NCBI GenBank assembly: GCA_021801795.1
Contig: JAJYXR010000006.1
Location: forward strand, 1-64,000
Reading direction: 5' to 3'
Length of the DNA stretch: 64,000 nucleotides
Source: Actinomycetes bacterium
GTDB taxonomy: Bacteria > Actinomycetota > Acidimicrobiia > Acidimicrobiales > JAJYXR01
Shown here: positions 2,545 to 22,317 of the stretch, one piece after another
Numbering within the stretch: the stretch's first letter is position 1
Layout of the letters: every line of letters begins with the position of its first letter
Notes under the pieces: model-generated
Databases searched by the model: none
The model's input: the letters and a program-made list of their open reading frames with translations, nothing else
Told to the model about the DNA's origin: nothing
Made by a program: the position numbers and the translations under genes

Positions 2545-3516
2545 TCACGCGCACCCAGACGGCTCACTCCCGGCGCTTTGCAACCCGTCGCAGAAGTGGT
2601 CAAGCGAGTCGATCCACTCGACGTCGATGTCCGCGCCGGCAAGTGCTCGAAACCGTTCGCCGACGATCTCGTTGGGATCCACAATGCGAATCCTCCGAAG
2701 TGCCCCTGCGGCTGACGTCGACAGCAGACCTGCGATTGCCGTGTCATAAGGCGGTGCGCTGTACCCGACGACTACCCACTCCTCCGCCGTCGTGAGAAGC
2801 GATCGCGCCTCGCTCCATACCGCGCTCAGTGCGGTCGGTATCGCCTTCTCAGGTGCAGGAGCGACGATGTAGCTGACATCGTGCGAGCGATACGCCGGGC
2901 GACAATCAGCGAGCACCATGACGCCCGATGCTGACAGATACCAGTTCAGCGATCCATGCAGTTTGCAGAGTGGGACGCTTCCGGTGATATCGATCCACTT
3001 GCGTCGTACCGAGAAGGTGGACGCTCCTAGAACGCGGCCGCCACCGATACCGGCGTAGAAGAACCCTGGCCTCGTTGGACGCTTCATCAGCCGATGTCGA
3101 AGCGTTCGCTCGGCGAGGAGGTCGTAGTTCGTCGTAACGACGCCGACGAGTTCGTACTTGTGCAAGACCGCCCCGATGAACCGGTGATGCATCGCAGCCG
3201 GCGACGGCTTGTCGAGCCGTTCCCCATACCGCAGCTCGTTGGCGAGCCGCACCTGATCGGGCTCAGCAAGACGGGCCCCGACGTACCGGACGACGTACGG
3301 CCAGAGGGAGGTGCCCACCATGGCGGACAGGAACTCCTCGGCAAACGCGCTGGTGTTCTGACCGCGCCACCGCCGCCACTCTTCGTGAACCCGAGCATGA
3401 AGCCGCTCGGCTTCTGCGGAGGCTGCAAACGGCACGTCCTCAAACAGTTCGCCGACGAGTGGTCGGCCCGCCACCCGTGACCAACCAGCACCGAGCATCA
3501 CCACCGCCTTCGTCAC
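2545..3516 (-). CDS. SIR2-like domain protein
   Basis: A 323-aa protein with the sirtuin-like Rossmann signatures in order: MLGAGWSR (7-14, NAD-binding GAG), VVTTNYDLL (126-134) and CKLHGSLNWY (184-193). Homologues of this SIR2_2-like type in bacteria frequently serve as NAD-consuming effectors of anti-phage systems (established for the wider family, not shown for this protein). The start is GTG at 3514-3516; no strong ribosome site is seen. No partner effector or sensor gene is adjacent, though the DUF3644 gene lies 2.3 kb away and GTAGGGC boxes sit directly upstream. A housekeeping deacylase is less likely, since the zinc-ribbon cysteines of true sirtuins are not visible. Confidence 0.75.
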   Translation of the reverse strand: MTKAVVMLGAGWSRVAGRPLVGELFEDVPFAASAEAERLHARVHEEWRRWRGQNTSAFAEEFLSAMVGTSLWPYVVRYVGARLAEPDQVRLANELRYGERLDKPSPAAMHHRFIGAVLHKYELVGVVTTNYDLLAERTLRHRLMKRPTRPGFFYAGIGGGRVLGASTFSVRRKWIDITGSVPLCKLHGSLNWYLSASGVMVLADCRPAYRSHDVSYIVAPAPEKAIPTALSAVWSEARSLLTTAEEWVVVGYSAPPYDTAIAGLLSTSAAGALRRIRIVDPNEIVGERFRALAGADIDVEWIDSLDHFCDGLQSAGSEPSGCA

Positions 3517-8578: not shown

Positions 8579-10006
8579 ATGGCTGGCCTGATACGCCTCA
8601 CGACCATTGGCTCGGTAGACGACGGCAAGTCCACCCTCATCGGCCGCCTCCTCCACGATACCGACCAGCTGCTCGCCGACCAGCTGTCGGCACTGACCAC
8701 TGCGAGCAGGCGCAGAGGCGTGCGGGGCGTGGACCTCTCCTTTGCCACCGACGGCCTTCGTGCCGAGCGCGAGCAGGGGATCACCATCGACGTCGCGTAC
8801 CGCTACGCGAAGACCCCGAACCGCCGCCTGGTCATCGCCGACTGCCCCGGACACCTTCGCTACACGCGCAACATGGCCACCGGATCTTCCACCGCAGACC
8901 TCGCGCTGGTCCTGGTGGACAGCACGAAGGGCCTGCGCGACCAGACACGTCGGCACTGCGCGATCGCTTCCCTGCTGGGCGTGTCATCGATGATCTTCGC
9001 TCTGAACAAGCTGGATCTGATGGGCTGGGACGAGGAGGTCTTCGAGGAGATCAGCGCCGAGGTGCGCCGCCTGGCCACTCGCCTCGGGCTCATCTCTCCG
9101 GTGGTCATACCCATGTCGGCCCTGCACGGCGACAATGTGGCCGAGCGATCCGCGAATACCCCCTACTACGGTGGTCCCACGCTCGTCGAGGCCCTCGACC
9201 GGGCGACTCCCAGGAGCTGGGCCACGAGCGGCTCGTCGGGCATGCGCTTCCCGGTCCAGTGGGTGATCCGCCACCCCGGCGGGGGGCGCAGCTACGGCGG
9301 CATGGTGGCAGGCGGGACTCTTCGGGAGGGCGACGAGGTGGTGGTGCAGCCCTCCGGCGAGCAGACGGTGGTGCGCAGCGTGTCCACCTTCGACGGCCGG
9401 CTCCCGGAGGCGTCTGCTCCACTGTCGGTGAACCTGGAGGTCTTCGACGACATAGACATAGGTCGCGGCGACATGATCGCTGCTGCCAGCGACCCACCGA
9501 GCCTCACCAGCAGCCTCCATGCGACCGTCTGCTGGTTCTCCGACGCGCCGCTCTCGACGTCGAGTCGATACCTCGTGAAGCACACCACCAGGACCGTCGG
9601 GGCCAGCGTGCTGGAGGTCCTCGACCGGCTCGACTTCTCCACGCTGGCAAAGAGCGCTTCAGGGGAGCTGGTGAGCAACGACGTGGGCTCGGTCCGCTTC
9701 GAGCTCCACCAGCCCTTGAGCGTCGATCCATACAGCGAGAACCACCATACGGGCAGCTTCGTCATCATCGACCCGGCTACCAACGCCACCGTCGGGGCTG
9801 GTCTGGTCGGAGCTCCCGAAGAGCCCCCTACCGCTGCCGGTGCTCCGGCAGACCATGCCGGGCAGGATGCCGGTTCCAGGCCGGCTGGCCTCCTGGCCGG
9901 TTCCAGGCCGGCTGGCCTCCTGGCCGGTTCCAGGCCGGCTGGCCTCCTGGCCGGTTCCAGGCCGGCTGGCCTCCTGGCCGGTTCCAGCACCGAGGCCGCC
10001 AGGTGA
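8579..10006 (+). CDS. cysN: Sulfate adenylyltransferase subunit 1 (GTPase)
   Basis: The GTPase that drives APS synthesis by CysD; 475 aa. G motifs: GSVDDGKSTLIGRLL (P-loop), DCPGH, and NKLD. ATG 8579 is chosen because it gives the standard start just before LIRLTTIGSVDDGKS, with CCGAGG upstream; the frame is open further 5' but overlaps cysD. After the EF-Tu-like beta-barrel domains, the protein carries an unusual tail with four copies of a nine-residue unit containing SRPAGLLAG, encoded by a 27-bp tandem repeat. No APS kinase is fused at the C-terminus. The stop overlaps the next start (GTGA). Confidence 0.93.
   Translation: MAGLIRLTTIGSVDDGKSTLIGRLLHDTDQLLADQLSALTTASRRRGVRGVDLSFATDGLRAEREQGITIDVAYRYAKTPNRRLVIADCPGHLRYTRNMATGSSTADLALVLVDSTKGLRDQTRRHCAIASLLGVSSMIFALNKLDLMGWDEEVFEEISAEVRRLATRLGLISPVVIPMSALHGDNVAERSANTPYYGGPTLVEALDRATPRSWATSGSSGMRFPVQWVIRHPGGGRSYGGMVAGGTLREGDEVVVQPSGEQTVVRSVSTFDGRLPEASAPLSVNLEVFDDIDIGRGDMIAAASDPPSLTSSLHATVCWFSDAPLSTSSRYLVKHTTRTVGASVLEVLDRLDFSTLAKSASGELVSNDVGSVRFELHQPLSVDPYSENHHTGSFVIIDPATNATVGAGLVGAPEEPPTAAGAPADHAGQDAGSRPAGLLAGSRPAGLLAGSRPAGLLAGSRPAGLLAGSSTEAAR
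9870..9986 (+). repeat. 27-bp tandem repeat in cysN 3' end
   Basis: Four full copies plus a partial one of a 27-bp unit starting CCGGTTCCAGGCCGGC, beginning at 9870, 9897, 9924, 9951 and 9978, virtually identical. The unit is in frame and encodes a repeating Gly-Ser-Arg-Pro-Ala-Gly-Leu-Leu-Ala tail. Near-identity at DNA level indicates recent expansion. Confidence 0.95.
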
Positions 10007-19266: not shown

Positions 19267-21004
19267 GTGCCCGGTGGCCTAGTGGGATGGCTGGAAGTCG
19301 GAGCGTGTTCCGTGGCTTTCGTGCTGGCCGGGCTGCGCTGGTTACGGGTGGCCCAGCGCGAGCACTACACGGCAGACGGGGCCTCGCGCTTCGCGATGCG
19401 CTGGTGGGCTTCGAGCCTGGCGAACGCCGCTCTGGTCCTCATCGCCGGAGTGGGTCTGGTGCTGGCAGTGCGCTGGCCTGCGACCGGCTTCGCCACCGCC
19501 TTCGCTGCGGGAGTCGGACCGCTGGGCCTGGGACTTCGAGGCCGTAGCGCTCCACTGGCGTGGACAAGGAGGCTCCGGACGCTCGCCGGGGTGTACCTGG
19601 CTCTCGGCGCAGCCGTCGTCGCAGGCGTCGGCCTGGCGGGCCACGCCACCACCGCGGCAGCAGCGGTCGCCATCGGCTCGCCCGCCCTGGTGGACATAGC
19701 CTGCCGCCTCACCGCGCCCTTCGAACGGATCTGGGCAGGCAGGTACGTGAGCGCAGCACGGCGCAGGCTCTCAGATGTGGGACCGACCGTCGTTGCCATC
19801 ACCGGCTCCTATGGCAAGACCAGCACGAAGGCTGCTCTAGCGCAGCTCGCCGCGGGGTCCTTTGACGTGATGGCCAGCCCCGCCAGCTTCAACAACCGTG
19901 CGGGCCTCGCGCGCGCCATAAACGAGAACCTGACCGACAGCACGGAGGTCTTCGTCGCAGAGATGGGAACCTACGGTCCGGGTGAGATCGCCGAGCTCTG
20001 CTCCTGGATACGACCGGACATCGCCACCATCACTGCCATCGGTCCCGTCCACCTGGAGAGGTTCCGCAGCGAGGACCGGATCCTGAAGGCGAAGTCGGAG
20101 ATCCTCGAGCATGCCAGCACGGTGGTCATGCCGATCGACGACCCGCGCCTGGCCGCAGTGGCGACCTCCTGCGCCGAGAATGGAAAACGGGTGATCACCT
20201 GCTCTGCGCGCCCCGCAGATGGCGAAGGCTCCGAGGGCAGCCCGGACCAGGGGAATGATCCACCCGGATCAGCCGACGTCACCGTCATCCCTTCGGGCGG
20301 CACCTGGCAGGTCCAGGCCGGCGAACAGGTCATCTGGTCTGGGCCCGAGCTGGCCGTGCAGCCACTGAACGTCGCCTGTGCCGTAGCCATCGCCAGGGCA
20401 CTGAACGTCCCGGACGAAGCGATCTCCGAACGCCTCGGAAAACTGGCCCCGGTGTCCCACAGGCTCGAAGCCCTGGAGTCCCCGACCGGGGTGCAGGTGA
20501 TCGACGACACCTATAACTCGAACCCTGCCGGCGCCCGTGCTGCCCTGGAAGCTCTCGGGCGCCTGGGCGGCGGGGGGACTGGCGAGGTGAGGACGGGCGG
20601 GGGGGCTGGCGTGGTGAGGACGGGCGGGGGGGCTGGCGAGGTGAGGACGGGCGGGGGGGCTGGGCGAGGAGGCGCGGGGCAAGGTAGTGGTGGTCACCCC
20701 CGGCATGGTCGAGCTCGGACGGCGCCAGGCCGCCGAGAACGCCGATTTCGCTGCCAGAGCAGCCACGGTCGCCACCCACCTGGTGGTGGTGGGCCGCACG
20801 AACCGCAGGGCCCTCCTGGCAGGGGCCAGCGCCGCAGAGCCCGCGCCGCCAGGGGCCTCCGACGGTGCCTCCGATGGGACGGCCCGACTAGCCGAGGTGG
20901 TGGTCGTGCCGAACCGTGAGGCTGCCGTGGCATGGGTGCGGGAGAACACGGCTGGCGGTGACGCGGTCCTCTACGAGAACGACCTGCCGGACCACTACCC
21001 CTGA
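19267..21004 (+). pseudogene. murF: Membrane-anchored MurF ligase, frameshifted as read
   Basis: UDP-N-acetylmuramoyl-tripeptide:D-Ala-D-Ala ligase. An N-terminal region with several membrane helices (about 10-145) precedes the Mur ligase core: ATP loop VVAITGSYGKTSTK (175-188), SFNNRAGLARAINENL, MGTYGPGEIAELC, HLERFRSEDRILKAKSEI and DDTYNSNPAGARAALEAL. Then a 27-bp tandem repeat with 7-G runs begins, and after it the frame is wrong: the expected C-terminal domain (VVVVTPGMVELGRRQAAE to the end at 21004) lies in another frame. One extra G, for example at 20662-20664 compared with the repeat unit, restores it if removed. MurF is normally essential, so sequencing error, slippage or programmed frameshifting are all possible. 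Followed by ddl. Confidence 0.8.
20581..20661 (+). repeat. 27-bp G-rich tandem repeat in murF
   Basis: Three copies of a 27-bp unit at 20581, 20608 and 20635, each GGCGAGGTGAGGACGGGC (second copy GGCGTGG) followed by a run of Gs and CT. Each has seven consecutive Gs. The next unit start reads GGGCGAGG instead of GGCGAGG. It encodes repeated Gly-Glu-Val-Arg-Thr-Gly-Gly-Gly-Ala. Confidence 0.93.
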
Positions 21005-21159: not shown

Positions 21160-22317
21160 TTGCCACCGCCATCGAAGACACCCGAGGAAACCCTGAAGGC
21201 ACTCGGCCGGCGAGCGGTCGCGGTGGTGTTCGGTGGTCCCTCCCCCGAGCACGACGTGAGCATCCTGACCGGGCTCCAGGCAGCCAGAGAGCTGGGGAGC
21301 CGCGGCAGGCGAACCATCGCCATCTACTGGACCAGATCCGGGGAGTGGCGTTCGGTGGACCCGTCGCTGGAAGCCTCGGCATTCGCTGACGGGGTCCCGC
21401 GGGGGGCCAGGAGCCTCCAGCTGATCGCGGGCCCAGGCGGTGGATTCGTGGAGACGGGAGGGATCACCGGCCGGTCCAAGGGCCTCGAGATCGGATGCGT
21501 CCTGAACTGCTGCCATGGAGGACCAGGTGAGGACGGCACCCTCCAGGGAACTCTGGACCTGGCCGGGCTCGCCTACACGGGACCGACGGCATCGGGGGCC
21601 TCACTCGGCATGGACAAGCTGGCCTTTGCCGGGGTGGTATCGGCGGCCGGGCTGCCCTGCCTGCCCCGTGTGGCACTGACCGCTGGCAGCGAGAAGGTGG
21701 GTTTCGAGGGGCCCTACATACTGAAGCCGCGTTACGGTGGATCGTCCATCGGGATCGACGTGGTGGAAGACATGGCCACCGCACTGGATCGCCTGGCGGC
21801 GAATACCCACCTGCGCCGCGGTGCGGTAGTGGAGCCCTACCGGAAGGATCTCTTCGACCTGAACGTCGCGGTCAGGACCTGGCCGGAGATGTCGACCAGC
21901 GCCGTCGAGCGCCCCCTGCGTACCGAGAGGTCCGCCGAGATACTGGGGTACGCAGACAAGTACGTCGGCGGGGAGGGCATGGCCGGGGCGCCTCGTGAGC
22001 TACCTGCCCGCATAGCTGAAGAGCTGACCGGGGCCCTCATCAGCGCTGCGCGCGAGGTGGCATCGCTCACGAACGCACGGGGCACCGCACGCATCGACTT
22101 CCTCTCCGACGGGGAGTCCTTCTACGTGAACGAGGTGAACACCATCCCGGGCTCCCTCGGCCGCTACCTGTGGATAGACCCGCCACTTGCCTTCGGGGAT
22201 CTGCTGGACGCGCTCCTGGCCGAGGCGATGGCGATGCCCGCTGCACAGCACAGCGCCACAGGAGCTGACGGCACCGTGCTGCGCTCAGCCGGTTCCATCG
22301 CATCGAAGCTGGCCTGA
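21160..22317 (+). CDS. ddl: D-alanine--D-alanine ligase
   Basis: Joins two D-alanines, the substrate MurF adds to the peptidoglycan precursor; 385 aa. ATP-grasp features: VVFGGPSPEHDVSI at the N-terminus, LNCCHGGPGEDGTLQGTLDL, GPTASGASLGMDK, YILKPRYGGSSIGI, and the metal-binding NEVNTIPGSLGRYLW near 325-340. Nominal start TTG 21160 with a weak site. Longer C-terminus than usual, ending in an Ala-rich tail. It follows murF by 155 bases, so D-Ala-D-Ala supply and use are genetically linked. Confidence 0.92.
   Translation: MPPPSKTPEETLKALGRRAVAVVFGGPSPEHDVSILTGLQAARELGSRGRRTIAIYWTRSGEWRSVDPSLEASAFADGVPRGARSLQLIAGPGGGFVETGGITGRSKGLEIGCVLNCCHGGPGEDGTLQGTLDLAGLAYTGPTASGASLGMDKLAFAGVVSAAGLPCLPRVALTAGSEKVGFEGPYILKPRYGGSSIGIDVVEDMATALDRLAANTHLRRGAVVEPYRKDLFDLNVAVRTWPEMSTSAVERPLRTERSAEILGYADKYVGGEGMAGAPRELPARIAEELTGALISAAREVASLTNARGTARIDFLSDGESFYVNEVNTIPGSLGRYLWIDPPLAFGDLLDALLAEAMAMPAAQHSATGADGTVLRSAGSIASKLA

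Follow-up and report, generated by a model that had tools for sequence, protein, structure and literature searches.

The window, which is the whole stretch of 64,000 nucleotides analysed here, belongs to contig C4 of a 2.5-Mb genome that comprises 43 contigs and is 92% complete. Judged by its MurF-like gene, its nearest relatives are metagenome-assembled genomes (MAGs) of the Acidimicrobiales. On the forward strand, a membrane-type MurF gene spans positions 19267–21004 and is split over two reading frames. Its N part (19267–20568, forward strand) encodes an N-terminal helical bundle, the Mur ligase central domain and the start of the C-terminal domain, and is read in the frame whose codon starts leave a remainder of 1 on division by three, a frame that stays open from 19267 to a stop at 20917–20919. 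Family alignment placed a P-loop (TGSYGKTSTK) in the central domain and the motif DDTYNSNPAG at the start of the C-terminal domain, and profile searches with this part matched TIGR01143 over profile positions 63–322 (E 4.6e-48) and Mur_ligase_M (E 4.2e-26). The C part (20675–21004, forward strand; RGKVVVVTPGMVELG to ENDLPDHYP) is read in the frame with remainder 2, which does not open before 20645 and ends at the stop at 21002–21004, and it matched positions 46–122 of the Mur_ligase_C profile (E 5e-5). The C-terminal domain of this MurF accordingly lies in two reading frames rather than one. Behind it, on the same strand, an intact ddl-like D-alanine--D-alanine ligase gene occupies positions 21160–22317 (TIGR01205, E 1.3e-48), and ddl was directly downstream of the MurF gene in 73 of the 74 relatives with a Ddl match.

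Between the two parts lies a G-rich minisatellite (20569–20669, forward strand), for which TRF gave a score of 179, a period of 27 bp, 3.7 copies and 94% matches. Its units start at 20569, 20596, 20623 and 20650 (the last being partial) and hold G runs of 6, 7, 7 and 7 nucleotides (20572–20577, 20599–20605, 20626–20632 and 20653–20659), the first unit carrying G6A instead of G7. No other 100 bp of the window are as rich in G as the array, which also ranks in the top 0.08% for G+C. Two copies of a 7-bp direct repeat, CTGGGCG, were found on the forward strand at 20563–20569 and 20660–20666; the right copy starts 97 bp (3n+1) from the left one and holds the GGG at 20662–20664. Within the frame of the C part, each of units 1–3 contains a TGA stop (20588, 20615 and 20642, together spanning 20588–20644 on the forward strand), and the sole interval in which a change of frame yields a full-length protein is 20645–20685, which holds the last G7 run, the GGG at 20662–20664 and a GGGG. 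A strict G-quadruplex motif, the only one in the MurF gene, is also present on the coding strand at 20649–20664, and it is this same GGG that completes it.

The preliminary description had named the gene murF, and MurF structures indeed ranked first in both profile and fold comparisons (PDB 4cvm, 4qf5 and 3zl8). However, it is not a canonical murF, as the UDP-binding domain is absent: the TIGR01143 profile was matched only from position ~63 onward, with 164 bits against a curated cut-off of 288.6. The nearest relative's AlphaFold2 model has a mean pLDDT of 92; in it, the N-terminal bundle takes up ~170 residues (helices 5–31, 38–49, 51–66, 71–83, 101–123, 127–136 and 138–171) and is followed by the central and C-terminal Mur domains. 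Because the helices of the bundle are hydrophobic, it is predicted to reside in the membrane. Compared with canonical MurF (UDP-N-acetylmuramoyl-tripeptide--D-alanyl-D-alanine ligase; TIGR01143), the membrane type thus shares the central and C-terminal domains, the ddl neighbour and the status of sole candidate in its genomes, but differs in that a helical bundle takes the place of the UDP-binding domain, that it is located outside the dcw cluster and that it scores below the curated cut-off. The site of the array corresponds to the turn between helix 424–437 and strand 443–447 of the model, so that an in-frame insert should be easily tolerated there, whereas an out-of-frame insert would destroy half of the domain. 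Searching the literature for murF in Acidimicrobiia, membrane MurF and murF phase variation returned nothing on point among the papers found.

A search of the genome for a second murF, which had been proposed beforehand, was carried out with the murF profile and found none in the 92%-complete genome. The matches consisted of the MurF-like gene, followed by murE, murC, murD and a weaker match on contig C37, which we take to be a folC-like gene. One match on contig C3, considered as a canonical murF, turned out to be murE, directly upstream of mraY. Specifically, the dcw cluster (C3:14000–33999) is ordered ftsI-murE-mraY-murD-ftsW-murG-murC, so that murE directly adjoins mraY and murF is missing, and five relatives with a membrane-type MurF (L136, L137, L138, L140 and L141) showed the same order, again without murF between murE and mraY. 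The earlier expectation that the cell should need this gene as its MurF was strengthened by these results.

The distribution of the two MurF types was examined in 59 genomes of the order and, separately, in 150 genomes of the phylum. Within the order, 26 genomes carried the membrane type, 29 carried a canonical MurF and one a partial canonical MurF, and none carried both; the three with neither type were 63–84% complete. Within the phylum, the membrane type was present in 11 genomes, none of which had a canonical MurF. Ten further bearers of the membrane type, including the two named isolates Actinotalea sp. M2MS4P-6 and Aciditerrimonas ferrireducens MV1, likewise had no canonical MurF, and G033, a 99%-complete genome in a single contig, depends on the membrane type. 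Because no canonical MurF occurs alongside it, the membrane type is, by exclusion, the predicted MurF of its bearers. By the same reasoning, the MurF-like gene of the window should be the only MurF of this organism, and it should be essential. A distant membrane-type branch was also seen in the phylum (family f62; genomes G069, G085, G099, G114, G138, G148, G180 and G201), in which the profile was matched mostly from position ~63–91 on and no canonical MurF scored above the cut-off.

Mismatch repair genes were surveyed in this genome and 58 relatives of the order. Neither NucS nor MutS was found in the genome of the window. In the order, NucS was present in 26 of the 30 genomes with a canonical (or partial canonical) MurF versus 4 of the 26 with the membrane type, an association that is confounded by phylogeny, and MutS1 above the cut-off was found in no genome of the order examined. 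These counts point to an apparently mismatch-repair-free clade; species without both the NucS and MutS systems have been reported (PMC5290159).

The position of the frame break was located independently with a codon-model Viterbi scan, in which the cost of a frameshift was set below that of the intergenic route. Without being supplied with a position, the scan switched frame at 20650. The preliminary description, with its loss of frame at a G-run repeat and its three runs of seven Gs in 27-bp units, was confirmed. A full-length product requires a shift of +1 (or –2). The usual direction of slippage at a slippery G run is –1, and a –1 slip would lead into the third frame, where a stop follows at 20685. 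As each of units 1–3 holds a TGA, no one-base change in G runs 1–3 can give a full-length protein, and as the unit of 27 bp is a multiple of three, the gain or loss of whole units never alters the frame, which excludes restoration of the frame through a change in repeat number.

Two parses fit the offset. The break had been ascribed to one extra G at 20662–20664, in the last unit, and this remains a valid parse, but a 97-bp insert (3n+1) between the CTGGGCG copies is equally simple. Joining the sequence at these copies yields ...ALGRLGEEARGKVVVVTPGM, with a loop of 28 residues, which is the usual length in the family (26–29 residues in most relatives, up to 59). Moreover, the GGG at 20662–20664 matches the left flank and would be original flank under the insert parse, which makes a miscalled base at just this place slightly less likely. 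The units of the array resemble the right flank, which suggests a local duplication, although the high G content keeps the succession of events from being proven.

The accuracy of the frame elsewhere was assessed in 250 kb of the genome, made up of stretches from contigs C3, C4 and C37. Apart from the MurF break, the Viterbi scan revealed no interior frame switch flanked by coding sequence on both sides in these 250 kb, and the 29 other intragenic arrays all kept frame. Pervasive indel errors in the assembly were thereby ruled out; the assembly is generally good, with the MurF array as the exception. A candidate break at C4:71028 simply marked the boundary between one gene and the sugar nucleotidyltransferase gene that follows, and the arrays flagged at C4:103808, C4:130852, C3:18541 and C3:22496 were located at gene ends. 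Short-unit tandem arrays are abundant in this genome, with 63 in 250 kb, 52 of which have a period divisible by three. They are often found in coding ends and loops, such as the DDAR repeats of murB and the TGRTGR repeats of ftsI, and an 18-bp array at C3:30824–30978 encodes RTPDHP repeats. In the window itself, a tRNA-Trp called by ARAGORN at 9865–9948 coincides with a 27-bp tandem array (9869–9987) and is probably a false call.

Membrane-type genes from 80 relatives were compared at the C-terminal loop, and none had a break there. An automatic frame check was passed by 74 of them, five had a variant motif but were full-length, and in the remaining one (L054, from MAG_BO157) an in-frame TAG near 3239–3241 interrupts a degraded P-loop (GYFG*KF), making it a broken or miscalled copy. 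A conserved frameshift was consequently rejected, and the array itself was seen in no relative. The C part of the window gene showed a median identity of 64% to the relatives, compared with 55% for the core, and is judged from its sequence to be without decay. No second lesion was found in the MurF gene.

Taken together, we favour as the probable explanation that this is an indispensable membrane-type MurF bearing a G-rich minisatellite in a tolerant loop, and that the offset by one base reflects a faulty consensus or a minor variant, not any regulated device. The minisatellite of 27-bp units would have expanded in this lineage at the helix-to-strand turn of the C-terminal domain, where the loop tolerates inserts, and the insert as assembled, being 97 bp (3n+1) long, would place the rest of the domain out of frame. 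Given that the protein should be essential and that the C part is undecayed, an in-frame allele is most likely what the cells have, or at least what prevails in them. The offset would then stem from an error in the consensus or assembly, or from a minor out-of-frame variant caught in it, at an array prone to both sequencing error and replication slippage. The extreme G content of the array fits this reading, as does the failure to find NucS or MutS, owing to which the repeat may be unstable. An assembly error had been put first among the explanations in the preliminary description, and rightly so in our reading. What counts against an error is that the rest of the assembly looks frame-accurate, so that the error has to be attributed to the local difficulty of the array.

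Alternatively, the break might be real and fixed, with +1 slippage of the ribosome or RNA polymerase within 20645–20685 (at the G7 run and then GGG-CGA) producing the full-length enzyme at a reduced level. This reading, which we consider unlikely, would account for a sole MurF with an undecayed C part in an otherwise accurate assembly, and a +1 shift at GGG CGA after the G-rich stretch would be conceivable. A G-rich Shine-Dalgarno-like sequence directly precedes GGG CGA, and the strict G-quadruplex motif lies in the permitted interval. The shift needed is nevertheless +1 or –2 instead of the common –1, a –1 slip on the G7 heptamer leading to the wrong frame; the 0 frame lacks a nearby stop (the next being at 20917), unlike prfB-type +1 sites; and CGA, at 8.9 per thousand codons, is not very rare. 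Moreover, neither break nor shift site is conserved, with none of the 80 relatives broken at the loop, which also speaks against the programmed frameshifting suggested earlier. There are precedents for such rescue. In herpesvirus thymidine kinase, compensatory frameshifting occurs at a G7 run carrying an indel (PMC5009743), and the window gene likewise has an indel beside a G7 run, past which the intact frame goes on, but the viral case is drug-selected, whereas the window gene is presumed essential and is known from sequence alone. In Blochmannia, homopolymer frameshifts in conserved genes are possibly corrected by transcriptional slippage (PMC3017870); there too, one indel is the only sign of decay in a conserved gene, but the tracts are poly-A/T in AT-rich symbionts, whereas the G7 run here sits within a 27-bp minisatellite. 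Less probable still is that the gene has been inactivated in this lineage, its function being supplied from the unassembled 8% of the genome or by another ligase, or that the MAG mixes strains. The genome is indeed only 92% complete, and the in-frame stop in the P-loop region of L054 puts broken membrane-type copies on record. Yet the two MurF types never occurred together in the 59 or the 150 genomes, the C part is undecayed in a gene free of a second lesion, and ddl is intact behind it.

The preliminary description had further raised the idea of a phase-variable cell-wall gene, in which changes in G-run length would turn MurF on or off among the cells of a population. G7 runs are present, no mismatch repair was found, and frameshift switching at a homopolymer tract, with documented variation in length, is known for glpK of the actinobacterium Mycobacterium tuberculosis (PMC12817950). 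The likeness to glpK extends to a homopolymer tract in a coding gene of an actinobacterium, but the window gene is the sole MurF, three of its four runs cannot switch the protein, and it is known from one assembled allele. Slippage at the G runs is not supported as a switch, as the TGA in each of units 1–3 blocks these runs, the 27-bp units are neutral for the frame and a –1 slip enters the wrong frame; only run 4 could toggle the full-length product through its length. Furthermore, the off state should be lethal for a sole MurF, and no relative has the array, so that phase variation appears very improbable. We give hardly any credence to a fifth reading, in which a separately started C-terminal fragment (e.g. 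from the GTG at 20687) complements the N part. An AGGAGG at 20667–20672 does sit 14 nt before this GTG, but that spacing is long, a start there would lose the beginning of a conserved strand, the protein would be cut within the Mur C-terminal domain (between helix 424–437 and strand 443–447 of the model) and not between domains, and the gene is split in no relative.

Irrespective of the frame, the absence of a UDP-binding domain recalls MurT, the Mur ligase homologue of the MurT/GatD pair that amidates lipid II, a membrane-anchored substrate with no uridine that would have to be bound (PMC6085368). MurT, however, pairs with GatD, whereas the window gene matches MurF by profile and fold and has ddl as its neighbour. 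By analogy with MurT, the membrane-type MurF may use a lipid-linked substrate. A broader scenario, which we put forward tentatively, is that, in some of the Actinomycetota, a membrane-embedded MurF lineage has taken over from the cytosolic enzyme and, acting after MraY, attaches D-Ala-D-Ala to a lipid-linked precursor and not to UDP-MurNAc-tripeptide, the frame break being a separate accident of an unstable loop repeat.

For MAGs, the case indicates that calls of a broken essential gene need read support across G-rich minisatellites. If the break were real and rescued, a presumed-essential cell-wall gene would depend on slippage. Otherwise, many actinobacterial genomes, those of cultured isolates among them, still have a membrane-type MurF instead of the textbook enzyme; this type has been little noticed and scores under the curated murF cut-off. 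This in turn raises the question whether, in the bearers of the membrane type, the last cytoplasmic peptide step takes place on the UDP-linked or on a lipid-linked precursor.
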